From: Ceratobasidium sp. AG-K
Taxonomy: Eukaryota > Basidiomycota > Agaricomycetes > Cantharellales > Ceratobasidiaceae
Assembly: GCA_037039685.1 (NCBI GenBank)
Contig: JAWNGF010000007.1
Span: 2,232,001-2,296,000, forward strand
Length of the DNA stretch: 64,000 bases
Direction of reading: 5' to 3'
The first letter of the stretch is position 1, and the number at the start of each line of letters is the position of its first letter. A program made the translations under genes and the position numbers. Below are positions 11,907-55,176 of this stretch, piece by piece. The notes below the pieces were generated by a model. The model had not been told where the DNA came from. It made no database searches and was given only the letters and a program-made list of their open reading frames with translations.

Positions 11907-14900
11907 ATGACCACTTCCGAATCATTTGACGCAAACTTGACGGAACCTTCAACACTGGACTCATTTTCCCTAACTCATCATACACTGGACGTGAACCAAA
12001 TCATGGACTCCGTTCGAGACAACGGAGCCGGAGCGGTGGCTGTCTTTGTGGGCACCACGCGCGATAACTTCAACGGTGGGTGACCCGTACATGGGTATAG
12101 AGGTTCTCCTCATTCGATAACATTACTCTTGGGTATGTCATCATTGTAGGCAAAGAGGTGGTTCGACTAGAGTACGAAGCATATTCGAAGCTGGCCATCA
12201 AGTCTCTAGCTAAAATTGCAAGCGACGCTCGTAAACTAGTACGCTGATCCCGCTTAGGTGCATGTTTCCCGTCTCAAGGGTCACAACTGTTGAATATTCA
12301 GTCTTATACGTGTATATATGCGTATCACGTGATTGTGTTCCACATGGACACGCGCTTCGGTAAAAATTTTGTCCTCAGTTCTCTACTCTCAAGTAGTACG
12401 AGCTGAGGTATAGTTTAGATTTTATCTTTTATATTCATTTGCTTATATTACCTGTAGTTACATTGATATCCAGGTATATATATGCGCAGTTCTCTACTCT
12501 CAAGTAGTACGAGCTGAGTTACATTGATATCCAGCCCGACACTGCGCTTATCTCAAAAGGTTATGAGCCCTGGTAGCGTCAAAAGTGAAGAACCAGAGAA
12601 CCCAGAAAACGCTGTAAACGTTACTACTACTACAATGGCATCGACCGACGCTTACCTTAGCAAGAAAACCTACGAGATCCCACTCCTGAAGGACGACGGA
12701 TCCAACTATAGCTCATGGAAGTTCCGCCAAACGACGGTCCTGCGAATTCGGGGACTGCTCAAGATCGCGTATGGCACAGAAACGCCGCCTGAACCGCTCA
12801 CCGAGACCGAGAAAAAGGACTCTGCCAAAGTATCAGCCAATAAAATCGAAATTGAACAATGGCAGAAGCGAGACGACGACGCATTCGCTCAGATTACCCT
12901 GAATATGGAAGACGGAGCGATGGCCGACGTGATCGAGACGACATCGGCGCACGAAGCATGGACGAAAGTTGTCGAACGCTGGGAAGGAAAAGGAATGCAA
13001 TCGCTATCCTTTTACTATCAGCAATTCATGAGTGCAAAAATCGAGGAGGAAGAAGACTTATCTGCCGGGTTTAACAACATCCGATCGATCGCCTCCAAGA
13101 TGAAGACACTCGGAGAAGCGGTGACCGACCTTATGCTCGCGCAAGTCTTCATGAATGCGCTCCCCCCGTCCTATGCGATCGTCAGCACGGTCATCCAGAC
13201 ATCCACTCAGACCGGCCTCATCACGCCCGACATGGTTGTCAAAGCGGCATTAGCTGAAGAAGAACGACGGAAGACAGGAGGCGGACTCACAGCGATGTTT
13301 GCTCAAGCCCCAAAGCCAAAATCCAAGAAACCGAGCGACCTGAAAGGGAAGAAAAAGGCCAAAGGCCCCCTATGCGACAACTGCGCCAAGCCCGGGCACA
13401 CCAAGAAGGAATGCTGGGCGAGAGGAGGCGGAGCCGAAGGGACCGGACCACACCAAAAGCGACGAGCCGCTAAGTCAACTGAATCAAAAACGAGCGAATC
13501 AAGTAACGCACCTAAAACCGAATCGGCAAAAGTGGTCCTCACAGCCGAAGAACCCGATGATATGCCATCGATATATGCGATGCCGGCCGTGGACAATCAG
13601 TCAGCTAGAGACACGTGGCTGCTCGATTCGGGAGCGTCAAAACACATGACCCGAAATCGAGAATGGTTTTCGACTTACCGACCTCTGGTACCACCAATCG
13701 CCGTTCGAGTGGGCGACGGGAATATGATAAATGCGACCGGAATCGGCCGTGTCCAGCTTACGCTACGCAACGGAACCCGTAAGGAGACCGACATGTCGAT
13801 CGACAGTGTATTGCACGTACCGGGACTTCATGCCAGTCTGATGTCCGTCAAACAACTCGCCAAACGTGGCACTTTTGTTCTTTTTGGCAAAAGTGAGGCA
13901 AGACTCCTGGCGAACGATGGCCGTGGACCCGAGATCGGCTACGCACGCGAGTTAGGCGTCGAACTTTACCGACTAAATGCGCGCGTTAAACACGCAGAAC
14001 CGACCGCCCATGTTGCCATTGTCGAATCGGAGAACCTGAACGATGAGGATGACCTAGAAGCGAGCGAATTCATCGCATATACGGCCAGTCACATCGCCCG
14101 AGCCGATCTACATACCTGGCATCGTCGCCTAGGACACATAAACTACAAGTATGTCCTAGATATGGTCAGAAAGGGCGTCGTACGAGGGATGGACATCGTA
14201 GGCAGTCGCTTACCGCCGCAATCACAATGCGAGCCGTGCCTCAAAGGCAAGCAAACCCGCGCCCCATTTCCAACGTCGACAAATCGAGCGTCCGATGTAC
14301 TCGAGTTACTCCATAGCGATCTACACGGGCCCGCCGCCGTTCAAGCCATTCAAGGTTATCAGTACTTCGCTGTCACGATCGACGACAAGTCCCGCAAGAT
14401 ATTCGTTCACTTACTTAAGCATAAAAACGACTACGCGAATCACTTCAAGGAGTTGAAACCGTCAATCGAGAATCTGACGGGCAAGCGGATCAAGCACTTA
14501 CGAACGGACGGCGGAGGCGAATATGCATCAAACGCTTTCGAAGCATGGCTGAAATCGCACGGAATCGAGCACCAGAAGACCGAGGCGGATTCTTCAGCGA
14601 GCAATGGCGTAGCAGAGCGAGCGATTCGTACGTTAAACGATAGTCAACGAGCGATGCGAGCGGATGCAGACTTACCCGACAAATATTGGGGACTCGCAAT
14701 CATTCACGCCGCATACATCTGGAATGTAACGCCGAAACGATCGCTTGACGGTAAAACCCCGGACGAAATTTTCACGGGCAAGCTACCCGACGTCTCCCGA
14801 CTCCGCACCTTTGGCTGCAAGGCATGGGCTCGAGTACCCAATGATCAACGTACCAAGCTACAGGCAAGATCGATCGAGTGTACTTACCTCGGATTCGCCC

Positions 14901-17443
14901 CAAATCGAAAGGCGCATATTCTCATTCAGCGCTCGATCGGTCGCGTAATCACCTCACGTGACGTCGTATTCGATGAGGGAGGCGAGACGCGACAACGCGT
15001 GATAATTGAAGATTTCGAGGACGAGTTCCCAGAACAAGTGGGCGATCAGGAGCACCAGGAGCCAACGCCTGAAATCATCATCGAGCCAGAGCCAGTAAGC
15101 CGACAAGAATCTGATGCCGAGCCGACGAGCAATTCCCCCATCGAGCCAGAGCCGCCAGCGAAACAGCCTGAGCCTCCACGTCGATCAGGTCGAGCTACTA
15201 GACCGCCACTACGATACGGAGCTGAAGTGGGCGCGCAGAACGAGACTGCCACGCGAACCGATAAGCCGACGACCGAGAGCGCCCTAAATGCGCTAATTGA
15301 ACATCCCCCCGACACCTATGCCGAAGCTATGGCACGACCAGACGCCAATCTATGGCTCGAAGCTATGATCGAAGAAATCAAATCGATTACCGAGCATAAA
15401 GTTTGGAAACCGGCTGATAGACCGACTCACAAAAGGGTCATCAAATGTCGCTGGGTGTACGCATATAAGCGCGACGTCGATGGCGAAATCCTCAAATACA
15501 AAGCCCGACTCGTCGCCAAGGGTTTCCTTCAAGCTCCAGGTGTCGATTATGTTGAGATCTCGTCGCCAGTGGCCGCATCGGACGCATATAGGGTGCTTTT
15601 CAGCATCGTCGCGAGCGAAGACCTCGAGCTCCTTCAGCTCGACATCAAAACGGCGTTCCTACACGGCGTCGTCGAGGAAGAGCTCTACATGGAGCAACCC
15701 GAGGGATTTGCCGAAGGCGATCACGTCTGGCAACTCGTTAAAGCGTTATACGGTCTGAAACAAGCCGCTCGAGCATTCTACCTTCGACTTAAGGAGGTTC
15801 TCGAAGCGATCGGATTCACGAGAACCGAAAGCGACCACGCCGTATTCATTCAGCGGGATGGCGATAATTTAGCGATAATTTTAGCTCATGTGGACGACAT
15901 GCTCCTAGCCGGCAAACCTCTCTCGTTTCTAGAGGAAATCAAGTCGAAAATGCGCGAATCGTTCGACATTGTCGATCTAGGCGAGGCACGCATGTTCGTC
16001 GGAGTTGAAATCGAGCGCAATCGCGCTGCTGGCACGCTCAAAATTTGTCAAAAACGGTACATTAGCGACATATTAGCTCGATTCAGCATGACCGAGTCCA
16101 AGCCATGGGATACACCAATGGCAGAGTCACCAAATCTACCCAAACTCGACGCTCCTACTGTCGATCGGACGCTCTATCAACGTGGAGTCGGATCGCTCAT
16201 GTATGCGATGATTTCAACTCGTCCCGACATCGCTTTCGCGACCGGATTGCTTGCCCAACACGCCGCTAATCCTGGCGACGAGCATTGGTCAGCATTCAAA
16301 CGAGTTCTACGGTACCTACAAGGCACAAAAGCACTCGGGATCGTATTCGAACGATCGAAATCGTCAAAGCCGATCGGATATGTCGACTCAGACTACGCTG
16401 GCGATCCTAATACGAGTCGATCGACTACCGGTTGGATCTTCCAACGAGCCGGAGGAAGCGTCGCTTGGTCATCCCGAAAACAACCAACGATTTCATTGTC
16501 AAGTACCGAGGCTGAATATGTCGCCGCTGCGAGTGCCACCCGCCAATTGATTTGGCTTCGTCAATTTCTTGAAGAACTCGGATTTTTGTCGAAAGGTCCG
16601 ACAACTTTGCTTACCGACAATCAATCGAGCATTGCATTGGCCAAGAATCCCGTTAATCATCAAAATACAAAACATATTCGAGTAAAACATCATTTTATTC
16701 GAGAGGTGATCGCACTTCACGAAGTCGACCTTCAATTTATTCCGACCGAACAACAGGTCGCCGATGCGCTTACTAAACCACTTGGTCGCATCAAATTCCC
16801 TGGTTTCGTTACTGGGATGGGAATGTTTTAAATCCTTTCATTTCATTTTTCGCATAATCCTGAGTGGGCGTGTTGAATATTCAGTCTTATACGTGTATAT
16901 ATGCGTATCACGTGATTGTGTTCCACATGGACACGCGCTTCGGTAAAAATTTTGTCCTCAGTTCTCTACTCTCAAGTAGTACGAGCTGAGGTATAGTTTA
17001 GATTTTATCTTTTATATTCATTTGCTTATATTACCTGTAGTTACATTGATATCCAGGTATATATATGCGCAGTTCTCTACTCTCAAGTAGTACGAGCTGA
17101 GTTACATTGATATCCAGCCCGACACTGCGCTTATCTCAAAAACAACTAGGATATCCCGCCTCATGACTTTGGCCCTACGTCCTCGACTCCAGCCGGAACG
17201 AGTGCAGCTCATCTGACCCGAATTGCGATTCACCACCGCCTTGGGTCCGTCCCAGTAGGCGAATCATCAATCATTATCGCAGTCAGCTCCCCACACCGTC
17301 GCGAAGCCTTTTACGTCTGCGAGTGGATCCTGGAGCAAGTCAAGATGAAAACACCTATATGGAAACGGGAGTGGTATGCTGAGGGCGAGATGTCGCATGA
17401 GGCCCTTTGGAAAGCGAACTTTCCACCTCACAAGTCTTTGTAG
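11907..17443 (+). CDS. MOCS2B: molybdopterin synthase catalytic (large) subunit, MoaE/MOCS2B, with retrotransposon in intron 2
   Basis: Transfers sulfur from the small subunit to precursor Z to make molybdopterin, the cofactor backbone of nitrate reductase and related enzymes. Exons: 11907-12075, 12150-12238 and 17150-17443, together 552 nt, 183 residues, in frame. Motifs: GAGAVAVFVGTTRDNF, VVRLEYEAYSKLA, RIAIHHRLGSVPVGESS and AVSSPHRREAFYVCEWILE, then KMKTPIWKREW with the active-site-region Lys residues. Intron 2 originally ran from GTACGC at 12239 to ACAACTAG, 52 nt, phase 0. A 4,854-bp copia element plus a 5-bp target duplication now lies 49 nt into it, making an intron of about 4.9 kb. 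Coding sequence and splice sites are undamaged, so function depends on whether the enlarged intron is still removed. Confidence 0.93.
12283..12287. repeat. target-site duplication ACAAC (second copy 17142-17146)
   Basis: The five bases ACAAC directly flank both ends of the retrotransposon. Removing the element and one copy restores the 52-nt host intron ending ACAACTAG. Confidence 0.9.
12288..12558 (+). repeat. 5' LTR of copia element
   Basis: 271 bp starting TGTTGAATATTCA and ending TTATCTCAAAA, so the 3' end is not the usual CA. The U-rich interior contains two duplicated modules: a 32-bp block at 12376-12407 and 12487-12518, and a 17-bp block GTTACATTGATATCCAG at 12457 and 12518. Confidence 0.93.
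12559..12573 (+). promoter_or_regulatory. primer-binding site matching the anticodon arm of initiator tRNA-Met
   Basis: Directly after the 5' LTR lies GGTTATGAGCCCTGG. Its reverse complement, CCAGGGCTCATAACC, corresponds to the anticodon stem-loop of eukaryotic initiator tRNA-Met with anticodon CAU. The tRNA 3' end is not matched. This is the half-tRNA priming known for Drosophila copia and yeast Ty5. The ATG at 12563 lies within it. Confidence 0.8.
12563..16831 (+). CDS. copia gag-pol polyprotein
   Basis: One uninterrupted frame encodes Gag and Pol without a frameshift; processing is by its own protease. Likely start is the ATG at 12563, inside the primer-binding site, or the ATG at 12635; the frame is open further upstream into the LTR. 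With residues counted from 12524: Gag about 50-270, CCHC knuckle CDNCAKPGHTKKEC about 283, aspartic protease LLDSGASKHMT about 365, integrase HHCC/core with HSDLHGP about 595, RTDGGGEYAS about 660 and NGVAERAIR about 693. Reverse transcriptase shows LDIKTAFLHG about 1039 and HVDDML (YVDD equivalent) about 1122, and RNase H has YVDSDYAGD about 1285 and STEAEYVAA about 1326. All catalytic acids I looked for are present, so the enzyme set appears intact. Confidence 0.96.
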   Translation: MSPGSVKSEEPENPENAVNVTTTTMASTDAYLSKKTYEIPLLKDDGSNYSSWKFRQTTVLRIRGLLKIAYGTETPPEPLTETEKKDSAKVSANKIEIEQWQKRDDDAFAQITLNMEDGAMADVIETTSAHEAWTKVVERWEGKGMQSLSFYYQQFMSAKIEEEEDLSAGFNNIRSIASKMKTLGEAVTDLMLAQVFMNALPPSYAIVSTVIQTSTQTGLITPDMVVKAALAEEERRKTGGGLTAMFAQAPKPKSKKPSDLKGKKKAKGPLCDNCAKPGHTKKECWARGGGAEGTGPHQKRRAAKSTESKTSESSNAPKTESAKVVLTAEEPDDMPSIYAMPAVDNQSARDTWLLDSGASKHMTRNREWFSTYRPLVPPIAVRVGDGNMINATGIGRVQLTLRNGTRKETDMSIDSVLHVPGLHASLMSVKQLAKRGTFVLFGKSEARLLANDGRGPEIGYARELGVELYRLNARVKHAEPTAHVAIVESENLNDEDDLEASEFIAYTASHIARADLHTWHRRLGHINYKYVLDMVRKGVVRGMDIVGSRLPPQSQCEPCLKGKQTRAPFPTSTNRASDVLELLHSDLHGPAAVQAIQGYQYFAVTIDDKSRKIFVHLLKHKNDYANHFKELKPSIENLTGKRIKHLRTDGGGEYASNAFEAWLKSHGIEHQKTEADSSASNGVAERAIRTLNDSQRAMRADADLPDKYWGLAIIHAAYIWNVTPKRSLDGKTPDEIFTGKLPDVSRLRTFGCKAWARVPNDQRTKLQARSIECTYLGFAPNRKAHILIQRSIGRVITSRDVVFDEGGETRQRVIIEDFEDEFPEQVGDQEHQEPTPEIIIEPEPVSRQESDAEPTSNSPIEPEPPAKQPEPPRRSGRATRPPLRYGAEVGAQNETATRTDKPTTESALNALIEHPPDTYAEAMARPDANLWLEAMIEEIKSITEHKVWKPADRPTHKRVIKCRWVYAYKRDVDGEILKYKARLVAKGFLQAPGVDYVEISSPVAASDAYRVLFSIVASEDLELLQLDIKTAFLHGVVEEELYMEQPEGFAEGDHVWQLVKALYGLKQAARAFYLRLKEVLEAIGFTRTESDHAVFIQRDGDNLAIILAHVDDMLLAGKPLSFLEEIKSKMRESFDIVDLGEARMFVGVEIERNRAAGTLKICQKRYISDILARFSMTESKPWDTPMAESPNLPKLDAPTVDRTLYQRGVGSLMYAMISTRPDIAFATGLLAQHAANPGDEHWSAFKRVLRYLQGTKALGIVFERSKSSKPIGYVDSDYAGDPNTSRSTTGWIFQRAGGSVAWSSRKQPTISLSSTEAEYVAAASATRQLIWLRQFLEELGFLSKGPTTLLTDNQSSIALAKNPVNHQNTKHIRVKHHFIREVIALHEVDLQFIPTEQQVADALTKPLGRIKFPGFVTGMGMF
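16871..17141 (+). repeat. 3' LTR of copia element
   Basis: Reads the same as the 5' LTR over its full 271 bp, with the same internal duplications. It is followed at once by the ACAAC target duplication and then TAG, the acceptor of the host intron. Confidence 0.94.
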
Positions 17444-35437: not shown

Positions 35438-38386
35438 CTACTGATGTTGAATAGTCGAAGCCTCCTGGCTCGAATTCGACAACCCCAACGCACCGAGCAT
35501 CGCCTTTCCGTCTGCACTATCGTACTCGTCCATGTCCAGTTCAGTAGTAGACACGGCCGTGGACGAATCATCCGCCATCGTCCCTTCGTCCCTGCTCGTT
35601 CGCGCACTATCGATCGGAGGCACCGGATCAGTGATGAGTCGACCAGTCCCAACGAAACCCGTCGGCCGTCGAGCAGACTCCCACGTCTGAATCTCTCCAA
35701 CGCTAATCGTACTATCGCCAGCCGACAGCGCCGTATCGCGGGACAACATGCTCAATCGATTATGAACCAAAGCAGGGTCCAAGAGATGGGTGGTGCTCGA
35801 ATTTTCTTCAATGTACGCCGGGGGATGTGACGCGTGTGGATCAGCGGGAGTATCGGGCGAACTCTCGACGACAATCTGAACGCCCGCGTCGACTTCTTGG
35901 CGATAGCTCGAGTCGCCCTGGCCGGACGTGCGATGCCCGAGCTCGCCCAGTCCAGAAGTGCGACTGCCCAACTCGGGAGTACGGTGTGCCAATTCGGTGA
36001 CAGAGGAGCCGTGTCCCTGGGCGGTATGATACGCCGAGGTAACATCGGAATAGTCCGAGCCGGTAGACGAGCGAGGTCCGTTGGTGTTGGAGTGTGAGGA
36101 GCCCGGCCGGCTGCGAAGAAGGACTTTGGGGAGACGTTGGTGCCATGCCGAGGGCGGAACCGCAGCGGGGGAGCCAGGGGCAGGAGAGGTGGGAGGGTTG
36201 GTTGAACTTCGGCCCGATGAACTTGGCCGGCTGTTGATCAACGTTCGGGCCCGCGCGAGCAGGCTGGGTTCGCGCGTAATGGGTCGGCGTGGTCGGGATC
36301 CACCACGGTCAGAGTCGGACTGGGCGTTGGTAACTCGAAGCGGGTTGCGTGCGGGTTTGGTAGGAGCTCCGCTGCCGAGACCAGTATTCGACCGCGAACT
36401 CGTGGTGGTAGCAGGATGGGGAGTGGGAGTCGACGGCTCTTCGGGCCTCGCGTTCTCTTCATCATCGGGTGCCAGCACACGCTCCACATCATGCGACACC
36501 CTCGCCGACTGGGACCGTTGTCGAAGATGATGGTAGTTGGACCGTGTCTTGGACCCCGTCGCCTCTGCCGACTCGCGATCCTCGTCTCCCTCACTCAGAC
36601 TAGCCTTGTGCGCAACGTCGCGGCTCCGACGACCCCACCCATCGCGACTAAACCTCCCGCCGTCACGGTCCTCGAGCCGGACAAACCTGCCCACATCCCC
36701 GCTCCTCCGCGTAGAATCAAACGACCCATGACGAAGGCCCGACCGAACGCTCACGCGGTGCTCTTTCTTCCTCTCGGTGCTCATCCTCAAGTCGCTCAGC
36801 TGGCGGAAATGGCCCGAGACGGGGCGCGAACTGGGATGCGAGCCAGGGCCGTTGTATTGGCCTGAAATCGGACGCCTGGAGACAAAGTCACCACTGCCGC
36901 TTGGTCGGTGATGGCTGACATGGCCAGAGATGGGCCTTCGGCGGCCTTGGTCTCGCTCGGGGTCATAGTCTCGGCTCATTCGATATGGGGGGTCTTGGTC
37001 GCGGCTAGGTCGGTACGGCGCGCCTTGGTCACGGCTAGCTCGGTAGGGAGGGTTTGGTCGGTAGTTGTCGTAGCCGTCGCGACTCCTACGATATCCGTCG
37101 AGGTCTCGACTGGGCCGATACCCATCGTCGTATCGACTTGACCTATGCGCCAGATCCATGCTCTCCCGATGCGGAGTCGCACCTGGATGGTACCCCCGAT
37201 ACTGGCCATCCAAACTAGCATGCCGGGCCAGAGAAAATGGACTAGGAGGTTCACCCCACGTCTCGCGATACGACGGGCTGCGAGCACTCAGATGGGACCG
37301 AGGCGGATCATACTCGTAATCAGACGGCTCCCGGCTTACGTCCGAGGCGTTCAGGTCGAGCGGCCTCAGGGACTCTGTTGGGAAATAAGCGTTCCATCAA
37401 TTGTTCAAGAAGCAGAAGCATACCTCGTTGTGAGCTGAACCTCGGTTCAGGGTTGCGTGGGACATAGATGTACTCGCCGTCGAGATAGCCCATGTCTTTT
37501 CCGATGCGGACATCTTCCACAGGTCTGCGCTGCGACCGGCCAAACCCGAGGCATCTCCACAGGATGATCGCAGCGAGGATGAACATGACCGCGGTACCGA
37601 ACACCGAGCCAACGATGATCCCGATGATCGCACCTGATGATAGACCAGCTGACGAGGAACCTGAAGTATCGGTGGGGGTGGGGAACGAGGTGGGAATGGG
37701 CGCAGCCGTCGTTGGAGCCGAGGGAGTTGCGTTTCTCCAAGCGCCTGGAATAAAATGAGAATAAGCTCGAACAAAGCGAGTGAAATGCACCTTCGAGGTC
37801 CCACTTTCCAGCTGACGGTTCGATCCTTGCCCAGAGCGGAATATCAATTTCATCGATGCGGGCCTTGATGATGGGATCATAGCTGGGGCAAGGTTAGACT
37901 TGTAGGGGTGAAGTGGAGAGACATACTCAGTGAGAGGATCAGGAATGGCCGCGCAGTTCTTTTCAAACGAAGTAAACGTTGTCGAGGTAGCCTCCATTGT
38001 ATAGTTGTATTGACACGACCTATGCAACATCATTAACCGTCAATACATTCGAATGAATAGACTTACCAGCAAGCGCTGAACAACGCAAATGTGGGGCTCC
38101 CACAGCAACACGCGGCAGTGATCGACCCAGGAGAGTTGTCGCACATGTAGTTACTGGGCATCCAGTCCAGCAAATACGCAGGGCTACATATTCGCATGAC
38201 ATCTTGTAGCACTCGACATGGCGACTGTCCGCGCGAGTTGGTCATCCAGCTGCAATACTATTAGCGAACCAAAATGACTTCAACACAGTATACGTACCTT
38301 GTCATCGCTGGATCATGGCATTCATAGGGGCCCTGTTGGGCGAGTGAGAGCTGGGCCACCAAAAGGAGCGGAATGAGCACCAGCAT
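35438..38386 (-). CDS. single-pass type I membrane protein, family copy 2
   Basis: Function unknown. Minus-strand exons 38386-38298, 38249-38067, 38019-37927, 37882-37791, 37744-37424 and 37374-35438 total 2715 nt, 904 residues, in frame. Signal peptide MLVLIPLLLVAQLSLAQQ, a Cys-rich ectodomain (SPCRVLQDVMRIC, CCCGSPTFALFSACW), a Thr/Pro stalk and one membrane helix (AIIGIIVGSVFGTAVMFILA) precede a 650-residue cytoplasmic tail. The tail is rich in Arg/Tyr/Asp/Ser with repeats such as YRPSRD and YRMSRD early on, and a Ser/Thr/Pro-rich remainder. Introns are 44-49 nt. Its first five exons have a near-identical duplicate at 51.7-52.7 kb. Low-complexity tail and single helix suggest a surface sensor or adhesion protein; that is inference only. 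Confidence 0.82.
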
Positions 38387-39190
38387 GATTAGGTCCGTCA
38401 AGGGGGAGTAGTGGCTCAGACTCAGGTCGCAACCGACTTTTGTTAAACATTTGTGTCCGTTTCCACCGACAAACGCCACATGTCAACCAAGGTTCAACTA
38501 ACCTCCTTCGATCGTCGGCATAAACAAGGGTTAAATTAAACATTCATTAGGCGCTACTATGACGTAATCAGAGACAAATCACGAAATCAGGATTCATCGG
38601 CTTGGGCTTGGGCTGATGGTGAAAATCTGAAGATCCGACGCCCGCGTCGAGTCGAGGAGTTCTTGAACCCACGAATCAAATGCCGGCTGTTTGGGGAACA
38701 GTCCCGCCCTTGCGTTTCGGACGACTGTGCCAAGCTCGCTGTCTAGTACGACAGACTCGATGTACGCCTGTCGGTCCGAACATTTGTTCCATAGTCTGGT
38801 TCTTCGGTGTATGCGGGCGTTGGGCCCCCCTTTGGCGGGGTAATCCTCGAGCGATGCTTTGCGTCCTCTGGTTCGTCGTACCCAGGTGGTTGATACCTCT
38901 CCGCGCTCAATCGTTAGATGTGTCGTTCGGCGGGCACAGTTTAGGCGAGACCGCATGCTATCATTCGCGTACTTTTCAGGTTCGTACCACCTGACTTGCT
39001 GAAGGCGTTGCTTTGCGAGGGGGCAGGCACCGCCAATCGATAATGCAGCGACATCTCAGGATACTTGGAGGGTTTATCTGCGCATTACTCGAGTCGGCAC
39101 ATTTCCGGGTCCACAACGTGCTTGATAATGTCGCATCGTACAGCTACGAGCTCTAGGCGTGGGAGGTCGGGTACAATATTATCCTCGACC
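37406..39190. repeat. segmental duplication, copy A (copy B at about 51674-53470)
   Basis: Same orientation, about 14.27 kb apart; positions in the membrane-protein part differ by exactly 14,268. Similarity is very high over the membrane-protein exons and introns (37.4-38.58 kb) and lower beyond about 38.6 kb, where small indels appear. Copy A keeps the whole membrane-protein gene but only a damaged piece of the neighbouring gene. Confidence 0.9.
38594..39190 (-). pseudogene. truncated copy of the hypothetical gene at 52868-55176
   Basis: Matches the last exon of that gene: shared stretches include AYIESVVLDSELGTVVRN and ARAGLFPKQPAFDSWVQELL. It lacks everything upstream of the last exon, and small insertions and deletions put the 38.9-39.2 kb part in different frames. 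It sits beside membrane-protein copy 2 just as the intact gene sits beside copy 3, so it came with the segmental duplication. Confidence 0.75.
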
Positions 39191-39535: not shown

Positions 39536-40241
39536 TTATTGCTGTTTTCAAAAGGGTCTGCCGGAAGCGCCGAGTGATGATGCACGCACAAAAAAACCGC
39601 CAAGAGTAAAGTCGATTGAACTCTGTCAAAACGAGTCACTGTGCTATGCAAAGTGTATACTCGGGCTCGTGTCGACGAGGCGCACGCTTTTGTGCACATT
39701 ATATGATGCAAATACAGATAATGAGAAATTGACCTCTTGGGGGTCCATGCGCGATTCTGCAGCCCGGAGTAAAGGTTGGAGCCCAAGAAAGGTATCGATG
39801 TTCCCGTAAGAGCTTCCTCTATATGCTAGCTGGCAAAGGTCTTCGGAGATTTAGTAATTTTACTATGATTGTTGCTGCAAAACCGACTCGTGACCACTGC
39901 CCCTTCGTGTATCTGGCGTGTGTAATTACCCCTCGAGAGACAGTGATCCAAGAGATGCAACAGGTACTATAAAGCGCTTGTGCACTGTGTTTAGACTCTC
40001 AACCGCCCTTCCGGCTACGGAATCGCCCATGGACCCCCACGAGGTGGATTTTTCAGTCTCTGTATTTACATCATATAATGTGCACAAAAACGTGCGGCTC
40101 GTCGACGCGAGCCCGAGTATACACTTTGCATAGCACAATGACTCGTTTTGACAGAGTTCAATTGACTTTACTCTTGGCGGTTTTTTTGTGCGTGCATCAT
40201 CACTCGGCGCTTCCGGCAGACCCTTTTGAAAACAGCAATAA
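39536..40241. repeat. imperfect inverted repeat, arms of about 222 bp
   Basis: Left arm 39536-39757 and right arm 40020-40241 are reverse complements with scattered mismatches, separated by 262 bp. Both arms carry the same protein-like stretch, for example KGLPEAPSDDARTKKPPRVK, on opposite strands. No target duplication or transposase is evident. A read-through transcript would fold into a long hairpin. Confidence 0.8.
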
Positions 40242-40986: not shown

Positions 40987-43900
40987 ATGGTCCGTGAGAT
41001 GGTGGACGATCCCGTCTGCAACGTCCATCGCGAAGAGGAAGATAGCATACACTATATTGGTATCCGAAAAATCGTTTCTCGAGCATGCAGGTCAAGATAC
41101 ACGTACGTATGCTGGTGGTAATTCCATGTGCTGAGTTGAAGGTCGTGGCTTTACAGTGGGTACGTTTGACATACTGTGCCACTTCAAGGCGCATTGATGT
41201 AGTTTGTGCCATACGTGTGACTAGGTTGAAGGCGCAAACGAAGTGAGGGTGTGTGTTTTTTGCTATCTGGTTAGTAAGCTGATACTTCTTGCTTTAACGC
41301 GACTTCAGAATGTACGTATCCACAATCACATAGACATTTCAAACCTGACAACTGAGTGTGCTGTTGGTCGATGTGGTTGTGTACAAATAGGGGGTGAGTA
41401 AGGAGAATAAATTGTGCAACCAAGCACGGAACAGTAGATCCATGGCCCTAAACGATTGTCTTCCTAACTGACAACGGGCGCTACTTTAGCTGGTGCGTGC
41501 TGAGCCCGAATTAGATGAGCTGCTAGTGCTAATCGGCGCTACGTTCGTTTATACGTTTTTCGGAATTGTGGTTCGTTGTTGTCTATTACCATGCTACTAC
41601 TATAGCGAGTGGGTCCCAATATCCAATCAAATGGAAGGCTGACTGAGCAGTGCATTGATTGGGTTTGACTCGCGATTCCATGGTGCTGTGTAACTGGAGA
41701 CTGTGAGCACAAATTACCAGGGGAAGCGAGAAAAACACTAACCATAAGTGTTCATATGGCTTAATGGACTTATTTTACCAACGGTAACACTGGGTGTATG
41801 TTCAAATTGGGTAATGTAGTGGGTGGGTGCTCTTGATATTTCAGATCTGACCCATATATTTTATTCTGCACCTAGACGGTATGTGGTACCCAGTGCCTCA
41901 ATACCGCGAGCTTCCTAATCAGTGACTTTGATGGACGTCAGTGGGTAAGTTTAATTTCACTGGCTCGCTGAGTGGTTTGCCGGAAATATAATTATTTTGC
42001 ATCTGCTGCCAGCCCGTGAATTACCGAGTGGCAAGTGCTTTAACCGTGGCTGAATCGTTCTAGTAGCTCTGACTACTTCGGCCTCACCTTTCCTACTCAC
42101 CCTTGTCCATACAGAGCGTGAGTACACCAGTTATGTGATATATTTGAGGTGCAAGTATGCTGAAATACTGGGTGGTTCGCGATTGCACACCGGTCCATCC
42201 ACAACGGCTATAGTATGTAAGTTGGCGCGTAGTTGCTGGGAGACGAGTTGTGTGTATTGACGAGATGTAATTGGTGATTGTAGAGGGTGCGTTTTGTGTC
42301 TGGCACAGAGAACATACGGCGATAACAAACGTGCGCGATGGCAGATTGTGAGTAAGATTCAGTGCGCTATATGACATGCATTGAGCTATGACGCATGCCC
42401 AACGCTCAGACTGTGAGTATTATTAGAACAGACGGGAAGCCCTACCTAACTAGGAAAATACGTTATTTCACTACCGCTGGTTATGGTAATGTGCGGACTT
42501 AGTTGGTGCGTGTGCTACATATCAGACAGGGATAATGCTGATCAATGGATCTCGTCTTGCTCTCGCTCCTGGGTAACGCTGCGGGAACGTAGTTTGTACG
42601 TTCGAGCTGCGCCTCTCGGATGGGCAGGGCAGTGCTAACTGATTGATTGTTACATCGTAATGTATACAACTTCTAACCCTGTTGACGGGGGTTAAGCCGG
42701 TGAGTATATAATTCCAATGTGGCAACTGGGGCACTGATAAGTGGAATGTTCGTGTTTACATCCTTGTCATTGTTAATATCGATCGCTGCTACTGGGTAAC
42801 ATTAGGCGGTATGTTTATTAATAGCTCGGATTATTCCTAGCCTTATGCCAACAAATTTTGCGTTCGTCCGATGGCACTTTCAGAATGTTTGTATGCGTCG
42901 CTTTCCTGGAGGGAGTAATATTAACCAGCGCAACACTTTTCTGGGCGGACCTGATTTCATTGCAACGCTGGTCAACGTTAACGCTTCCCGGGAATCTCAG
43001 AGAGTGCGTATGAGCCGTACATTCCTAAGATGTTGAATTATGTAGTAATAATCTGGACGATCTCTCATTTGCTGTTGCCGGCTAATACTACGATGCGATT
43101 TTAGCCGGTGGGTATCAATAGCATGCGAGAAGGGCGACATTGACCGTCGCAATCTAATATGTTTCGGGATGGTGTTTGACATGAATATTGGACAAACATG
43201 TGGCCTGTCCTCAGTGGGTGAGTGCAAGCAGGGTTAGGCGGAGATGATCTTGACCCTTGTTTCAATGCTCCGCAACGGCTGATGCTACTCGGTGATTTTA
43301 GAACGGAGTACGTATGTTTCACTCTGTGGCTAGGAGTACTGCTGAAAGACGTGATATCTACCTTGGTATGACTTGGTCTGTGACTTCTGGTCGACGTTCC
43401 TACGGAACTTAGGCGGTACGTTCGACATTTATAGGCATCACATAGGGATGATATTGAGTAACGAACTATCTCTTTGTTCATCCCGTTATGTGCCTATATT
43501 GCTGGGTACTTTTGACAAATGTAGTGGGTAAGTGTGTTAGACGTCAGATTGGAACCCACCTGGTATTGACTAAAGTAACACCTGTCTGGGTGCCCTATTT
43601 GTTATCACTCGCGTCTGATACTTCTGGATGACTGCAGTTGGTGCGTGTGGGCACGATGTCAGACGTAGGTGACGCTGACTACTAGCGTAATATTCCGGGG
43701 AATGCCACTCCTCCTTGCGACTGGTTGGTTCAATGTGGCAAATTTACTAGAGAGTACGTACAGACCGTGCTGCAGTTGGGATCACTCTGACTAACGAAGC
43801 GCTTCCCTGGATGCTTTGTTGATTGTTGTTCTTTGAAATTTTAGTTTGTACGTGCAAACCACTTGTTGAGTAGTCTTGACACTGCCCGGTCTAACACATA

Positions 43901-46900
43901 TCTGGGTATGTTTCCGCGGTCGTAAACCGATATTACGAATACACATTCAGGATGTGAGTGCAAAAGATATACCGGGCACTAGAATAACATTGATGTGTTT
44001 ATTATAATATTCACTTACGTTCCTCATACCTTCTTCATAATTGCCTTGTGAGTTTAGGAAGTGCGTATTAATCCTGTGTAGCAACTCTGGGTTAGAGGCA
44101 CTGATCAGAAGGTGCTTTGTTGGGAACTCACTACTCCCATGAACGTGCGCTCAGTATGTGCGTGTGAACCAAGCTTTGGATAGAAGGTTGGCTCATCCCT
44201 TGAACACTTTGGTGAACGTCTGGGTTATCACGATCGCTTGCTGGTCGCGTTGCACAATATTAGTTCGTATGTATAATCCATTTGCTGTGTATTAATGATA
44301 CTGAACTGTGTGTTAACGTTGGGGTTGATGCTTCCGGACCCTACCTGGCTCCTCTGCATACCTTTAGGAAGTATGTATAACCCGAACATTGGATGAATAT
44401 GGCGTTGATTAGAGAATTCTCTCCTGTGCTGAATTGTCGACGTGAATACTGGCAACAATACCATGGAACACAAGTTGGTGAGTGTCAATTAAATGTTGGA
44501 CGGGGATGGTACTGTTCACTGGTAGTGCGGTAATCACATGGACATGTGATGAGCACTATAGCTGATTTCACTATGCAATGCTAGGAAGTGCGTATGCGAT
44601 CACTTTTTAAACATAGAAACTGCTGACTGATACAATTGAACTTAACTCCCAACTGACTACAAACACCGGCGGGCACTGCTGTGTAACTCAGGGAGTACGT
44701 TGAAACTGTTGGCTCAACAAAATGAATACTGACTTGATTAATTCAACCTGGTATTTGATTATTCCAACGATTCTTCATTGAAATTATTGGGGGGACATAG
44801 GGAGTACGTGTACTAAGTAATACTGTGATTAACGCTAACTGCTCCGTCGCACCTGTGTGTATGGTTTTTGGCTATTTTTTTCACACCATATTAGCGGGTA
44901 CGTGCCAGCCATCCATTTGACGTTGGGTAGTTTTGGAAGCTCTGATTATCCGCTGGATGATTTTTTTGACATGTGACTATTGGCCAACTCTACTGTGCAA
45001 CTTTAGCGCGTAAGTACCACTCACCCTTCATACGTGGGTAAGAATAGCTGATGCGCTGTTTTTCTGGGTATACCACCTCATATCCCTCAAGTGGGTACGT
45101 ACTAATATGTATGCGATTGCCTTTGCAACACTCACATGACAATGCCGGGCGGCCCCTTACAATCACAGTTGGTATGCAGTGTGCTCTGAAACTTTGAAAT
45201 CGATACAGCTAACCACAAGAACTCTATCTTCAAATATATATCCTGCTATAAACACTGACTGATGGCATCTGATGGCCTTACCAGAGCGTGAGCACTAGCA
45301 TTTTTCTCGGTCAAAAGGAAACTAGCTGGTCTAATGTCATATCGCCCTTGGTGTCGGTTAATATGCATTATGCCATTATAGGGGGTGAGTAAAAAATAGT
45401 TTGAGGGAAAGCGCCTCGTAAAATTATATTTGAGCATTGCAATTGTTTTTATTATTATTAACACTACTACGTTGCTTCAGGTGGTACGTATACTCATTCC
45501 GGACCAGACGCAATCAATCTTGACATGTACTGCGTTTGCAAAACGGGAACACTCAAGACGGTGAGTAGAAGCCATGCACGGCACAAGAGTGTGATTGGTT
45601 GACATGATAACCAATTTCCCCAATTATTGGTTGGTGTGGCGTGTAATTTAGGGAATGTTATATGTACGTTGGTCAAGTACCATACACAATGGCATATAAA
45701 AGCACTGTGGACTAACGTAACAATGTGTCACTCACCGTTTCAATCGGATAATGTTGGTGCGCAACATCAGTCGGTACGTGGAAGCGTCACGTTGGGAAAG
45801 TTATTGTGCTGACCATGACAACATCTCTGCTGGTGGTTGCTTGGTGTGACCAATGTGCAATTCGCAGAAGGTGCAGCTTTGCTATGGAGTTGGGTGTTAA
45901 TGATGCTAACATACTCGGCAACTACCTAAATTGCCGTCCTCTCTTACTCGCTTATGGGCTCATATTTTTTGGTCCAAGTTTGTCTGTCATCTCATGACAC
46001 TTATTGGGGTTGTCTACTGATTGCTTTCTACTGCATAATAGATTGTGAGTTGCCGCTGTACATGTATCTGGGCCAAGATATCACCCTTAAACTTTACCTC
46101 GCCCAGACTGTATGTTCTGGTATTTCACGGGCAAAATTGCCGTTGATTGACGCATGAGATTCCGGGTCACATAGCTGGTCAGTAGTTTGTCCTTTTCTTT
46201 TTTTCGCTGCCATAGCCACACTCCACAAAATCTACTGTTGCTTGTGAAGGCCTGTTGACGTGCACCTTCTCGTGAGTGATTGCTCAGATAAAGGAGCACC
46301 CAAGTGGGCTGAGATAACAGCGCCCTTGGTGATTGTAAGTGCTCATTTATCTACGTGAGCACTCACGAGCAACTGTGTGCTCGTCAATTCTGTCAAATTT
46401 TGTGGAGCCCTTTACACCTCGCTCATGCGCACTAATGATACTATATAACACCTCTAGGATGTAAGTTCCTTGGATTACCCTGGTTACAAAATTACACGCT
46501 CTCATTATACCTGGTAATAATAACTTATAGAAAGTAGGTTACTATTCTTAGTCGCTTTTGTTTATTGTCTGACCGATTTCCTGGTATTAGGCTGTGTGTC
46601 TTTTCTGCTGATTTGAGTGAAACTTATCCCGACTTATCAACATGTCTCTGCTAGATGGTGAACATTGCAATCCAGCACTAGATTAGCCGACACTCACATT
46701 ATCTTCACTCTATCACTACCATTCTAGGAGGTATGCTTTGAGTAATCTCACTTGTTGTTTGAGCCTTCTGCTGACCTATGTGATCTTAGGCTGTACGCTA
46801 GTTCCTTCGTGTTTATTATCCAAGCTCACTAATTCTGTAACACCTTGTTCTTAGGCGGTAGGTTTGCTCAAACTGCCCACAACCGCAAAAATTAACTAAG

Positions 46901-49224
46901 TCAATGCTTTGACAGGTGGTAGGTGTTATCCCTTACCCTCATCAAACATATATTGTAAAAGCTCAACTAATCTATGCTACGTCATACAGGAAGTATGTGC
47001 TCTAATCACAATTACTCTAGCTAGTAATAGCGCTGATTCACATTATCTGCGGGATCGTGTAGGATGTAAGTTTTTCTACAGCTATTAATTGATATAGTTA
47101 GCTACTCACTTGTTTCTTCATGCTCTTAGTTTATGCATGACAAACCAAATGCTACACTGGATAAGGTTTGTTTGGATATCCCACAGCATTGTAATTTGTC
47201 CTTCCCGTTTTTAGGCTGCACTTCCTTGTTGTCAGTTTGGTTGGCGCTTGAGTGCTGACGCCCATCATTCACTAGGACCGAGGCATAATAACGATTACCG
47301 ACACTTTCTTAGGCTGGTGGTCTTCCCCGCGCCAACAGTCTCCCCCCCCGACGGCAGTCTCCCCCCCGACGGCAGTCTCCCCCACGCCAGCCATTGCCCC
47401 CACCACAGCAGCCACCGCCACGCCAAGAGTCTCCCCCAGGCCAACAGCCTGACCCGCCCCAGCGGACTCACGCAGGCCAACAGTCTTCCATGCATCACAA
47501 CGATACAAACAACCAGCCTCCGGCAAATTCCTGGGCTTGGATAACCACACCCGTCTCCTGGACTTGGATAGCCATGCCCATTGATATTCGCACCATAGCA
47601 GAAGTCTTGGTGCAAGCCGTTTTTTGGGTGCTGGGGTGGCTTCTAGCTCAACGCCATCTAGTGAGGTTGTCGCAGATAATTAGCACATATGTTGACCATG
47701 TTTCACACAGGTACGGGATGGGCATTCGAATAATAGCCACATTGGAGCCGAGAATCCAAACAACGAGGACTCTGAGTCAGATGGTGAAGACCAGGAGATG
47801 CCAGGTGGTTACACAACGATCACACACGAGATGGTAACACAGCTGAAAATCTTGCTCGGTGTTCAGCGCCTTAAAGTTGACTCCAATTTACCAGACAGTC
47901 GCTGAGATAATTGAACATCTTCGTCGACGTGGCTGCGAGGATGTGACGAGCCACCTTGATTTATCCAGGTGCAGCGAGTACCCAATTTCGTACGGTGGTG
48001 TTGGGGATGTGTTTCGTGGGGCCTTCCAAAACGGAAGTGAAGTTGCGATAAAGTGCCTGAGACTGCGTATGGACTCAACCAGAGAGACGAAGAAGCAGCT
48101 CAAGGTAAGGGGAATCTACAAACTAGGTTGTTTCTGATTACGGTTACGTAGCGTGCTGCACGGGAGCTCTACGTCTGGTCAAAGTGCAATCACCCGAATA
48201 TATTGGGTTTGTTGGGCCTAGCTCTGTACCGGAATCGGATTGCAATGGTGTCGCCGTGGATGGAGTATGGGAATCTTGGGCATTTGCTTTCTGTGCACCC
48301 AGAGGTCGATCGCTACAGACTGGTACAATGAGCCTTATCGAGTTTCCAGCCCAAATCTGACCCGACTACTCAGTGCGTTCAGATCATCAAGGGTGTTGCG
48401 CACCTACACGGTGAAGGCACTGTGAGCACTTCTTGAATCTACTATGCGCCAGAAAAAAATGCTTACCTGGTTCAAATATGTACTAGGTTCATGGAGATCT
48501 CAAAGGCGTACAAAAACAATGTGCTGGCTCGCGCCATCTCCCAAACTTATATCTATATTTTATAGGCCAATATCTTATTTTTGGTGGACTTCACGCCGAA
48601 GTTGGGGGACTTTGGAAACACAACTTTGAGGGAATATAGTCTGAGGTTCTCCAGGACGTCGAGTAGACCGGCCATGTCGCTCAACTGGGTGGTACGGGCT
48701 ATAACGTGAGCTGGTGTACCCTCTTTGACGTTGTCATCTTCAGGCTCCAGAGGTTCTCAAGGAAGAAACCGGGCTTACTATCGAGGCAGATGTGTGGTCG
48801 CTTGGAATGGTATGCTAAAAGCTTTGTGCTTCGGTAGCCTTGAGATTAACTGGGACCATTGTTTCTAGACCATCTTCGTACGTTGGTAACACCCTGTTCA
48901 GAACGTCTAGAGTCTAACCGGTTCTAAAGGAAGTTGTCACCGGAGAGATACCATACGCTGGAGTACGCGACGTAAATCTGATGAGGAGAATTGAGCGCAA
49001 CGAGCACCCTCCTCGACCTGAGGCATATATACCATCACGGACGAGGCACGCAGACTTACTTTGGTCGTTGCTTAAGAGTTGCTGGCAGTACACCGCGAGC
49101 GATCGCCCGAAATCAAGCGAAGTACACCAAAAGGTCGGTGCACGGTTTCATACGAGATAGATACCGACTGATTCGAGCTTTGTAGATGGAAAATATCGTT
49201 TTGGAAAGGGAGATGGGTAGCTGA
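40987..49224 (+). CDS. TKL-type protein kinase gene with an N-terminal half built from single-codon exons
   Basis: Predicted to phosphorylate Ser/Thr or Tyr on unknown partners. Kinase-half exons: 47313-47660 (Pro/Gln-rich linker, then a hydrophobic stretch TIAEVLVQAVFWVLGWLLAQ), 47711-47833 (acidic), 47895-48104 (GGVGDVFRGAF and catalytic Lys in EVAIKCLRL), 48152-48322, 48374-48421, 48487-48507 (HGDLKG), 48566-48691 (ANILFLVDF, DFG in KLGDFGN), 48744-48809 (APEVLKEE), 48869-48877 (9 nt), 48930-49133 and 49186-49224. All lengths are multiples of three. Upstream, exon-like units from 41091 to 47165 carry on in phase 0, most of them one codon long (separate entries). The start is provisional: ATG at 40987, ending at a weak donor at 41014 or 41023. 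Total about 79 exons and 565 residues. The kinase half is secure; the microexon half rests on splice-site pattern only. Confidence 0.75.
41091..43004 (+). other. microexon array, 5' block
   Basis: Exon-like units between YAG and GTNNGT-type donors: 12 nt at 41091-41102, 18 nt at 41225-41242, and single codons starting at 41157, 41309, 41391, 41490, 41606, 41700, 41820, 41876, 41942, 42013 (weak), 42115, 42214, 42284, 42345, 42410, 42503, 42593, 42697, 42806, 42884 and 43001. Introns run from 53 to 117 nt. From 42115 to 43001 the codons read SYRITLFPANR. Three-nucleotide spacing is exact at each site while the intron sequences differ. Confidence 0.72.
43004..45979 (+). other. microexon array, middle block with introns near 105 nt
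   Basis: Single-codon units start at 43105, 43215, 43413, 43525, 43638, 43751, 43845, 43951, 44058, 44155, 44264, 44368, 44475, 44585, 44692, 44801, 44895, 45007, 45092, 45169, 45285, 45382, 45481, 45558, 45771 and 45868. Longer units: 6 nt at 43302-43307 and 12 nt at 45652-45663. Most introns are 91-113 nt. In many, a branch-site-like CTGAC, TTGAC or CTAAY lies 29-45 nt after the donor, far from the acceptor. From 43413 to 44585 the codons read AWLRFDEYFELE. Confidence 0.74.
45979..47312 (+). other. microexon array, 3' block with introns near 60-70 nt
   Basis: Single-codon units start at 45979, 46042, 46107, 46175, 46458, 46531, 46591, 46655, 46728, 46790, 46855, 46916, 46990 and 47063. Longer units: 30 nt at 46305-46334 (WAEITAPLVI) and 36 nt at 47130-47165 (FMHDKPNATLDK). 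Introns drop to 57-71 nt here, apart from 127, 123 and 147 nt at three places where a unit may be missing or unrecognised. From 46458 the codons read DKAMEAAVED into the 36-nt exon. The block joins in phase 0 to the Pro-rich exon at 47313. Confidence 0.7.
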
Positions 49225-51559: not shown

Positions 51560-53470
51560 TCTTGTCGGCACTTGACTGGGGAGATGGCCCGAGACCGAGT
51601 GCGAACCAGGACCGTTGTATTTCTTGAAATTAAACGCTCGGCACAAAATCACCGCTGGCTCCCCTCGCTGCTTCGAGAAATAGAAGCGTACCTCGTTGTG
51701 AGCTGAACCTCGGTCCAGGGTTGCGTGGGGCATAGATGTACTCGCCGTCGAGATAGCCCATGTCTTTTCCGATGCGGACATCGTCTTTGGCTTTACGCTG
51801 GGACCGGCCAAATCCAAGGCATCTCCACAGGATGATCGCAGCGAGGATGAACATGACCGCGGTACCGAACACAGAGCCAACGATGATTCCGATGATCGCA
51901 CCTGATGATAGACCAGCTGACGAGGAACCTGAAGTATCGGTGGGGGTGGGGAACGAGGTGGGAATGGGCGCAGCCGTCGTTGGAGCCGAGGGAGTTGCGT
52001 TTCTCCAAGCGCCTGGAATAAAGTGAGAATAAGCTCGAACAAAGCGAGTGAAATGCACCTTCGAGATCCCACTTTCCAGCTGACGGTTCGATCCTTGCCC
52101 AGAGCGGAATATCAATTTCATCGATGCGGGCCTTGATGATGGGATCATAGCTGGGGCAAGGTTAGACTTGTAGAGGTGAAGTGGAGAGACATACTCGGTG
52201 AGAGGGTCAGGAATGGCCGCGCAGTCCTTTTCAAACGAGGTAAACGTTGTCGAGGTAGCCTCCATTGTATAGTTGTATTGACACGACCTATGCAACATCA
52301 TTAACCGTCAATTCATTCGAATGAATAGACTTACCAGCAAGCGCTGAACAACGCAAATGTGGGGCTCCCACAGCAACACGCGGCGGTGATCGACCCAGGA
52401 GAGTTGTCGCACATGTAGTTACTGGGCATCCAGTCCAGCAAATACGCAGGGCTACATATTCGCATGACATCTTGTAGCACTCGACATGGCGACTGTCCGC
52501 GCGAGTTGGTCATCCAGCTGCAATACTATTAGCGAACCAAAATGACTTCAACACAGTATATGTACCTTGTCATCGCTGGATCATGGCATTCATAGGGGCC
52601 CTGTTGGGCGAGTGAGAGCTGGGCCACCAAAAGGAGCGGAATGAGCACCAGCATGATTAGGTCCGTCAAGGGGGAGTAGTGGCTCAGACTCAGGTCGCAA
52701 CCGAGTTTTGTTAAACATTTGTGTCCGTTTCCACCGACAGACGCCACATGTCAACCAAGGTTCAACTAACCTCCTTCGATCGTCGGCATAAACAAGGGTT
52801 AAATTAAACATTCATTAGGCACTACTATGACGTAATCAGAGACAAATCACAACACGGAAATCAGGATTCATCGGCGCCGGCTCGGGCCGACGGCGAAAAT
52901 CTGAAGACCCGACGCCTGCGCCGAGTTGAGGAGTTCTTGGACCCACGAATCAAATGGCGGCTGTTTGGGGAACAGTCCCGCCCTTGCGTTTCGGACGACT
53001 GTACCGAGCTCGCTGTCCAGTACGACAGACTCGATGTACGCCCTGTCGGTCCGAACATTTGTTCCATAGTCTGGTTCTTCGGTGTATGCGGGCGTCGGCC
53101 CCCCCTTTGGCGGGATAATCCTCGAGCGGTGCTTTGCGTCCTCTGGTTCGTCGTACCCAGGTGGTTGATACCTCTCCGCGCTCAAAATCGGGGGATGCGT
53201 CGTTCGACGGGCACGGTTCAGCCGCGAGCGTACAATGTCGTTTACGTACTCTTCAGGTTCGTAGCGCTCGGCCTGCTGAAGGAGTTGCCTTGCACGGGGG
53301 TGGGCACTGCCGATCGAGAACGTGGAAATGTCTTCTGGGTACTCAGGGAGTTTATCTGCGTGCTGCTCGAGTGGGCACTTTTCGGGGTCGACAACGTGGT
53401 CGAGAATGTGGCATCGTGCGGCTGCGAGTTGTCGGCGCCGGAGGTCGAGTACAATCTTGGCCTGCCGGAC
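51560..53470. repeat. segmental duplication, copy B
   Basis: Matches copy A as described there. At its left end, about 51690, similarity jumps from intron 5 of the membrane-protein gene straight to sequence matching exon 6 of copy 2 around 36.84-36.90 kb, so roughly 0.5 kb is missing. Similarity fades out near 51,560. Confidence 0.85.
51630..52654 (-). pseudogene. single-pass membrane protein, family copy 3, tail truncated
   Basis: Exons 52654-52566, 52517-52335, 52287-52195, 52150-52059 and then from 52012 correspond one to one with copy 2 and stay open. The donor of intron 5 at 51691 survives but its acceptor and the large tail exon are gone through a deletion. Reading through the donor adds about 20 residues and stops at 51630, giving a 279-residue product with signal peptide, Cys-rich ectodomain and membrane helix but no cytoplasmic tail. 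It could be a pseudogene or a functional decoy-like form; only expression would tell. Confidence 0.7.
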
Positions 53471-54871: not shown

Positions 54872-54903
<32 letters not shown>

Positions 54904-55176
54904 ACCCCCCCCCCCCCCCCCCCCCCACCCCCCCCCCCCCCCCCCCCCCCATAGCTCGAGGTCTGAAATATCCTTCAGTTGGCTGGCGTTGGAATCGATG
55001 TATAGGAGAGCGAGTTGGAGACGATCGTGCTACAAGCGACAATATGTTAGTAGATTCAGGCTGCAAATGGCGTAACGTACATCTTTAGCATATGGGATCA
55101 GCCGAGTTGATTCAAGTACCAATTGGGGAGTTGCGAGTATGGGTGTCAGCGGCTGAGTGGAGTACGTATTAGGCAT
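52868..55176 (-). CDS. hypothetical helical protein, coding frame crossed by a poly-G run
   Basis: Function unknown. From the ATG at 55176 the frame reads MPNTYSTQPLTPILATPQL, then across short introns LALLYIDSNASQLKDISDLE, a 77-bp poly-G run, and RKENLEQGFKDRDLNK. Further on come EEAEKY-like REKEAEKYLRTHHPAN, KAGVEQKKEILKLIEELYAT, IKEHAVRILDKIRVQRPYDT, LWCDKLREDLNTYLAKNP, LLLAVLGHLIKKLGNIVNAL and a last exon of about 600 nt ending ELLNSAQASGLQIF. Composition is helical with charged repeats, like a coiled-coil or scaffold protein. About ten exons; not every junction was resolved. A truncated duplicate of the last exon lies at 38594-39190. Confidence 0.6.
54874..54950. repeat. 77-bp poly-C tract (two A interruptions)
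   Basis: Seventy-five C and two A (54904 and 54927) on the plus strand, so poly-G in the overlapping minus-strand gene. In all three frames it encodes glycine almost throughout. Tracts like this can form G-quadruplex or i-motif structures, but they are also a classic site of sequencing or assembly error. Confidence 0.95.

Follow-up and report, generated by a model that had tools for sequence, protein, structure and literature searches.

A predicted array of single-codon exons leading into a protein-kinase gene in Ceratobasidium sp. AG-K, and its paralogs

Layout of the locus

The stretch of DNA analysed here (the window) comprises 64,000 nucleotides of the genome of Ceratobasidium sp. AG-K (C7:2232001-2296000); the genome searched amounted to 53.6 Mb in 17 contigs. 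On the plus strand of the window lies a predicted gene which begins with a long series of three-nucleotide exons and ends in a protein kinase. Its features are as follows.

41085..41102, plus strand: predicted first coding exon, 18 nt, beginning with ATG (MQVKIH), donor GTACGT; based upon the splice-chain fit and paralogs
41157..42347, plus strand: N-side framework, consisting of TGG, the 18-nt exon VEGANE (41225-41242) and the single codons N G L R T W T W P S Y R I
42410..45773, plus strand: array centre, consisting of single codons, a 6-nt exon (43302-43307, NG) and a 12-nt exon (45652-45663, GMLY)
46042..47065, plus strand: C-side framework, single codons I T D K A M E A A V E D
47130..47165, plus strand: array-closing 36-nt exon FMHDKPNATLDK, in paralogs FLRNNPEEMLSE and FLRRNPTMTLNE
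47313..47710, plus strand: predicted proline/glutamine-rich linker exon with a hydrophobic end, AEVLVQAVFWVLGWLLAQ; boundaries deduced from the frame and the splice-site letters
47737..47833, plus strand: predicted acidic linker exon (S)HIGAENPNNEDSESDGEDQEMPGGYTTITHEM; boundaries deduced
47895..49133, plus strand: protein-kinase domain (PF07714) in several ordinary exons, with VAIK, HGDLKG, DFG and APE

Based upon the strict pattern YAG-NNN-GTRNGT, 46 sites were identified on the plus strand between positions 41000 and 47200 and three elsewhere in the window (49 in total), while the minus strand of the whole window gave six matches. In 1000 mononucleotide shuffles of the region the pattern occurred 0.57 times on average and five times at most, which rules out a chance origin. 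The repeats of YAG, three bases and a donor-like motif described in the original prediction were thus recovered, and the array is real and far above chance. Within the region the distance from AG to GTRNGT was exactly 3 nt in 52 cases, every other spacing from 0 to 39 nt being found between zero and five times.

The model of the gene contains 63 predicted exons before the linker, 58 of which are 3 nt long and the others 18, 18, 6, 12 and 36 nt. It encodes 88 residues without a stop from the ATG to the kinase gene, and all of the longer exons are multiples of three. Its 62 predicted introns measure between 53 and 348 nt (median 91 nt) and fit the fungal GT-AG type (GTRNGT donor, YAG acceptor, length of the order of 50-120 nt), with a minority of sites off-consensus. 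When joined, the downstream exons matched Pfam PF07714 with an E value of 2.8e-34, and the kinase motifs were located in separate exons by six-frame reading. The single-codon array originally put at 61 units stands, now with 58 exons of 3 nt, and the claim that no single codon is a stop holds for all 58. The longer units had been given as 6, 12, 12, 18, 30 and 36 nt; that they are multiples of three agrees with the model, but the model has a different set, in which the 30-nt unit was not accepted, and its first exon begins at the ATG at 41085 rather than at 41091.

The model was derived from a fit which strongly favoured 3-nt exons and, less strongly, other multiples of three; four exons (18, 12, 3 and 3 nt) were added by hand through comparison with paralogs, and the 36-nt exon closes it. 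A splice-chain fit with no preference for length returned many long exons and stops and no clean chain, so that free fitting alone does not yield the model. Because of the preference for 3 nt and the exons added by hand, the independent evidence for exon length is the spacing count and not the model. Five of the 58 single-codon exons have an AAG or GAG acceptor and two a GTGAAC or GTGAAT donor; given these weak sites, the biased fit and the hand-added exons, individual exons of the model may be wrong.

Spacing of the units was 104.5 +/- 8.5 nt in the array centre (43001-45092) and 87.8 +/- 19.7 nt in the first part. CTRAY was present within 45 nt of the acceptor at 16 of the 46 strict sites in the window as a raw count, and an internal YTGAC at +31 to +42 was found in 7 of 24 centre introns, 3 of 21 early ones and 3 of 12 late ones. 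RNA folding of four single units was unremarkable (z -0.37 to 1.18).

Several other features were observed in the window. At 12288-17141 there is by eye a Copia-like retrotransposon, with an ORF of 1437 aa (12518-16831) between 271-bp direct repeats; these are 100% identical, and the insertion is therefore probably recent. The array gene is flanked by a direct duplication of about 1.8 kb (37404-39177 and 51672-53455, 92.7% identity). A 233-bp inverted repeat lies at 39536-39768 and 40010-40241, and a run of 77 bases, mostly C, at 54874-54950.

Paralogous arrays and their tandem units

A 70-residue kinase exon had at least 150 matches in the genome (150 of 177 candidates were scored). Arrays accompany 15 of the 30 kinase loci examined, with nine or more single-codon sites in the 1.56 kb upstream (0-2 at the other 15), and mark an expanded paralogous family; eight of these 15 loci form four near-identical pairs, so that four are second members. 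Eight array loci (L045-L048 and L049-L052) were read over 7.5-7.8 kb, and six of them have long arrays with both ends. The seven long paralog arrays carry 35-60 single-codon sites each. In L047 and L052 only the C side and a small number of units are present, with no N-side framework within 7.5-7.8 kb; the units of L047 amount to 3.4 copies of 109 bp, and L052 has one single unit codon. The array of L009, which stands before a more distant kinase, has 13 sites, and its framework residues are not the same.

Cut arrays were seen in L054 and L055, which break off after the N-side framework exons and five and three units, respectively; that of L054 continues into a gag-like ORF. The kinase relatives on contigs C3, C8 and C12 include many equal-score pairs per contig, often inverted and far apart, reflecting either large duplications or assembly effects. 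As a check for introner-type spread, in which near-identical introns sit in many unrelated genes, the tandem unit was compared with the genome; it gave at least 81 matches, all of them on C3, C5 and C7. Those which were read (L046, L049, L050, L052, L053, L054 and L055) are kinase-type or cut arrays, C5:2126082 and C5:2275662-2276074 lying outside that reading.

The two ends of the array recur among the paralogs. An ATG exon before the first TGG is common to six aligned loci, being MEIEII-like in four, MEVT in L048 and MQVKIH in the window; MEIEII, MEIEIV, MEIKIV and MEIELI are the forms found in paralogs. The N-side residues W, G, T, W, T and W recur in the same order in diverged paralogs, and the C-side framework residues and their order are partly kept. 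By position, the array centre of the window (42410..45773) matches the hypervariable part of the paralogs. At the DNA level the window array matched, in the whole genome, itself and two stretches of 82 and 105 nt in its last part; its kinship with the tandem arrays therefore rests on position and residues, and it would be an old, diverged member of the family.

The arrays of the young paralogs consist of intron units of 109-112 bp repeated in tandem. The centre of L046 holds 36.6 copies of a 112-bp unit in which the introns are about 97% identical and the codons (TAT, GGA, GTT, CGA, GAT, CTT, ACC or CGG) near saturation. In the 34 units that measure exactly 112 bp, the three positions of the codon had diversities of 0.66, 0.69 and 0.51 versus an intron mean of 0.025, and in 18 units of 109 bp in L045 they had 0.70, 0.68 and 0.70 versus 0.089, units of other lengths being left out in both cases. 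Within the L046 intron, four bases near the acceptor have a diversity of 0.45-0.51 and four others 0.11-0.21. A 109-nt intron is found ten times in L046 without a single difference, before four codons (CTT, GTT, CGA and GGA), and one identical 95-nt intron start occurs 23 times, after five different codons. Another identical intron precedes TAT in 8 of 8 cases, so that codon and acceptor end are partly linked. L049 and L050 carry the 112-bp unit of L046 with other codon orders. The central peptides are GYYYRLTRYVYRDYGGYYYYGVVGYRGDRVVDYGVVD (L046), DRLYGLRGSRDLYDLGLGSLRRLYRL (L049), YGEYYRVRRGEYRYRYR (L050) and YGWSSYKWEAYAKTSPTASDDS (L045), and the hypervariable centre of the young arrays is rich in Y, R, G, D, L and V.

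The speed of change is best seen in the pair C3:2622331 and C3:5603225, whose sequences agree at 99.9% across the 3207 bp surrounding the kinase exon, with three mismatches and one gap. The two copies differ at 11 of 1277 positions in the N-side framework and at 7 of 1521 in the last array part and C side. Their central codons number 17 and 24, alike at both ends and different, partly reordered, in the middle. One residue of the shared array part is Y in one copy and L in the other, and seven further, linked changes lie in the 80 bp or so around it, the pattern that cassette or gene conversion from another unit would be expected to leave.

Departures from the regular unit were also noted. Where units of L049 and L050 have lost an acceptor or are fused, one longer intron would result, with the frame intact. 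On the C side the second codon, GAG after GAT, is followed by GCTCGT in L046, L049, L050 and L052 and by GTAAGT in L045; with GCTCGT it is either spliced from a GC donor or skipped. A conserved TAG-AAA-GCGAGT directly before the variable centre of L046, L049 and L050 resembles one more single-codon exon, in this case with a GC donor.

Coding evidence and competing explanations

Within array bounds set by hand, none of the 409 single-codon sites in 11 loci is a stop, with about 19 expected from base composition and 47 stops among 468 control YAG+NNN triplets of these stretches that lack a donor; as tandem units and loci are related, these counts, like the diversity figures, are not independent trials. 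The sites dropped as lying outside the bounds were three in L047 (one of them TGA, more than 1 kb upstream of the units), two in L048 and one each in L050 and L009.

Framework residues were compared in five diverged loci (the window, L045, L046, L048 and L051), in columns which were placed by hand, gaps included. Identical residue pairs numbered 46 of 83 and 44 of 88, versus permuted means of 14.5 and 11.1, and this level was reached in none of 20000 permutations. The DNA of the C side gave no blastn alignment in 10 of 10 pairs of these loci, and that of the N side gave only matches of 14-15 nt, in three of 10 pairs. The end residues and their order kept across diverged loci, the absence of stops, the longer exons of the model being multiples of three and the continuity of frame into the kinase support, from sequence, the codon-by-codon coding originally suggested. 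A conserved peptide with conserved codon boundaries, which was to be sought in other strains, was encountered at the array ends, among the paralogs of one genome instead.

A test of the close paralogs for purifying selection revealed none, the exons being no better conserved than the introns. On the C side (L046, L049, L050 and L052) the values were 0.162 for single-codon exons, 0.134 for the closing exon and 0.098 for introns, and on the N side (L046, L049 and L050) 0.118 for exons and 0.133 for introns (Fisher p 0.58). Constraint is thus seen only at long range, in the diverged loci.

In a set of 5.8 billion proteins, searched through shared 5-residue words, no protein with the array peptide was found; annotation thus seems to miss the array. 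One query consisted of the L050 N-terminus joined to the window linker and kinase, three of its N-terminal residues differing from the later model. The array peptide had no match in Pfam or NCBIfam and none better than E 1.7 in the PDB. The kinase half had 219 homologous proteins, and among the 120 listed all of the named ones are from Rhizoctonia or Ceratobasidium. When these 120 relatives were scanned for array motifs over their first 400-450 residues, the closing exon appeared only in P0009 and P0018, and array peptide no further upstream than M-N-H. The contigs of these two proteins, of 1707 nt and 1539 nt respectively, are uninterrupted at the kinase introns of the window. P0009 begins with MNHFLDGHPEVTLSE and P0018 with MTLSE, at or just before the array-closing exon, and the M-N-H of P0009 (start M-N-H-F) was aligned by hand to three separate single-codon exon positions of this genome. 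This would suggest joining of the last single codons in the mRNA; against it, P0009 and P0018 could derive from array-less paralogs.

It is considered highly probable that the 58 triplets are spliced codon by codon into the N-terminus of the kinase, the sister arrays varying their codons and so, likely, diversifying a recognition surface. A minisatellite or an array of binding sites, with a core which merely looks like splice sites and is never spliced, would also give the near-perfect tandem repeats of the young copies, and minisatellites change copy number likewise. Without a coding function, however, the conserved end residues, the ATG exon, the continuity with the kinase frame and the lack of stops would be unexpected, which makes this reading very improbable; a plain minisatellite was rejected on the stop count (0 of 409 versus 47 of 468 in the control) and the conserved framework residues. 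That the window array is the relic of a once-working young array, now drifting and either not expressed or mis-spliced, is an unlikely explanation. It would agree with introns which are diverged and less regularly spaced than in L045, L046 and L049, with exons that need weak sites, with the lack of purifying selection on exons in close paralogs, and with arrays which are cut short (L054, L055) or lack the N side (L047, L052), but 58 of 58 single codons without a stop, longer units in multiples of three and intact framework residues and kinase motifs argue against decay.

A third reading concerns the mode of splicing and is compatible with the favoured one. The array may be a pool of optional codons from which alternative splicing picks subsets, yielding many N-termini per gene. 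Every unit being 3 nt and in phase 0, any skip is frame-neutral; some units have weak splice sites; and alternative splicing of codon-sized exons is stated, in partial descriptions, for the NACHT-ANK genes of Tuber. The fixed end residues and their order across diverged loci suggest, on the other hand, that the ends are included as a rule, and we rate this mode as a real possibility, somewhat short of an even chance.

Proposed mechanism and comparison with known systems

For splicing codon by codon into the kinase N-terminus, the following mechanism is proposed. In fungi, short introns are recognised individually, each as a unit (intron definition), and a 3-nt exon between two of them would thus be tolerated. 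Neighbouring introns would probably be removed one after another, because two sites so close together presumably cannot both be occupied. As every unit would contribute exactly one phase-0 codon, unequal exchange, gene conversion, unit loss or exon skipping should alter the peptide by whole residues and leave the frame unshifted. The predicted product would have a conserved frame, MEIEIIW-VE..-G..TWTW..Y / D.AKN.AV.D-FL..NP..TL.E, around a hypervariable centre, followed by the linker to the kinase. A sensor which changes fast between copies and signals through the kinase would fit this layout, and by analogy we infer that the array may have a recognition role.

More tentatively, and with slightly less confidence than doubt, the arrays may be regarded as a codon-cassette system, in which tandem introns each carry an exchangeable codon between framework exons and recombination rewrites the sensor of a kinase receptor in frame. 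If true, this would be an antibody-like variable region with one amino acid as its shuffling unit and introns as the recombination homology. The young arrays suggest protein evolution residue by residue through recombination, without frameshifts. For the spliceosome, the gene would be an extreme test of the smallest exon, some sixty times in one predicted transcript.

TAL-effector repeats are also near-identical tandem units, which differ in one or two coding positions. In the present arrays it is an intron that is repeated, and each copy would contribute one residue; no DNA-binding code is implied. In the repeat domains of fungal NLRs, fast sensor change occurs through unequal crossing over between tandem repeats. 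The repeat in that case is a protein repeat of tens of residues, whereas in the present arrays it comprises one codon and the accompanying intron. A passage of PMC9815663 mentions that similar repeats undergo unequal crossing over.

Plants and animals have single microexons, no longer than 15 nt, which are described as missed by annotation pipelines (e.g. PMC8831610); on that description they are isolated exons, in contrast to the dozens in succession found here. A functional microexon has been described in Xlr2 of Trichoderma virens, and the abstract states that filamentous fungi had until then yielded no description of functional ones (PMC11121469). Xlr2 likewise concerns a microexon in a filamentous fungus, but according to this account it is one regulated exon (PMC11121469). 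Among the papers listed in literature searches, none reports codon-sized exons in kinases or in Rhizoctonia, and PMC4014442 names microexons only as an aligner setting.

The closest likeness is to the NACHT-ANK genes of Tuber melanosporum, for which partial descriptions give many 3-bp exons ("tens", "dozens") that are alternatively spliced, with a proposed role in diversifying the recognition domain (PMC4986451, PMC3689799, PMC10197012, PMC9815663). The original prediction knew of no gene built from dozens of such exons, and on these descriptions the Tuber genes correct it. Both systems have tens of consecutive 3-nt exons in an expanded fungal family, here at the sequence level (58 in the window model). 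As far as those descriptions go, the Tuber genes encode an NLR in an ascomycete, with exons bearing on the C-terminal recognition domain, whereas the present exons belong to the N-terminus of a kinase in a basidiomycete; since the downstream domain is a protein kinase (PF07714) and not a NACHT-ANK NLR, the gene does not belong to the nank family, although it would work in a similar way. Provided that the kinases act as receptors, codon-sized exons would vary a sensor in another fungal phylum and another class of protein as well, which would point to a way of telling self from nonself that is more general among fungi and has been overlooked. In the present genome the tandem units are seen to consist of near-identical introns with exchanged codons, Tuber being compared from partial descriptions. 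Dozens of 3-bp exons being already known in Tuber, the kinase context and the tandem codon-cassette anatomy, as read from sequence, appear to be what is new.
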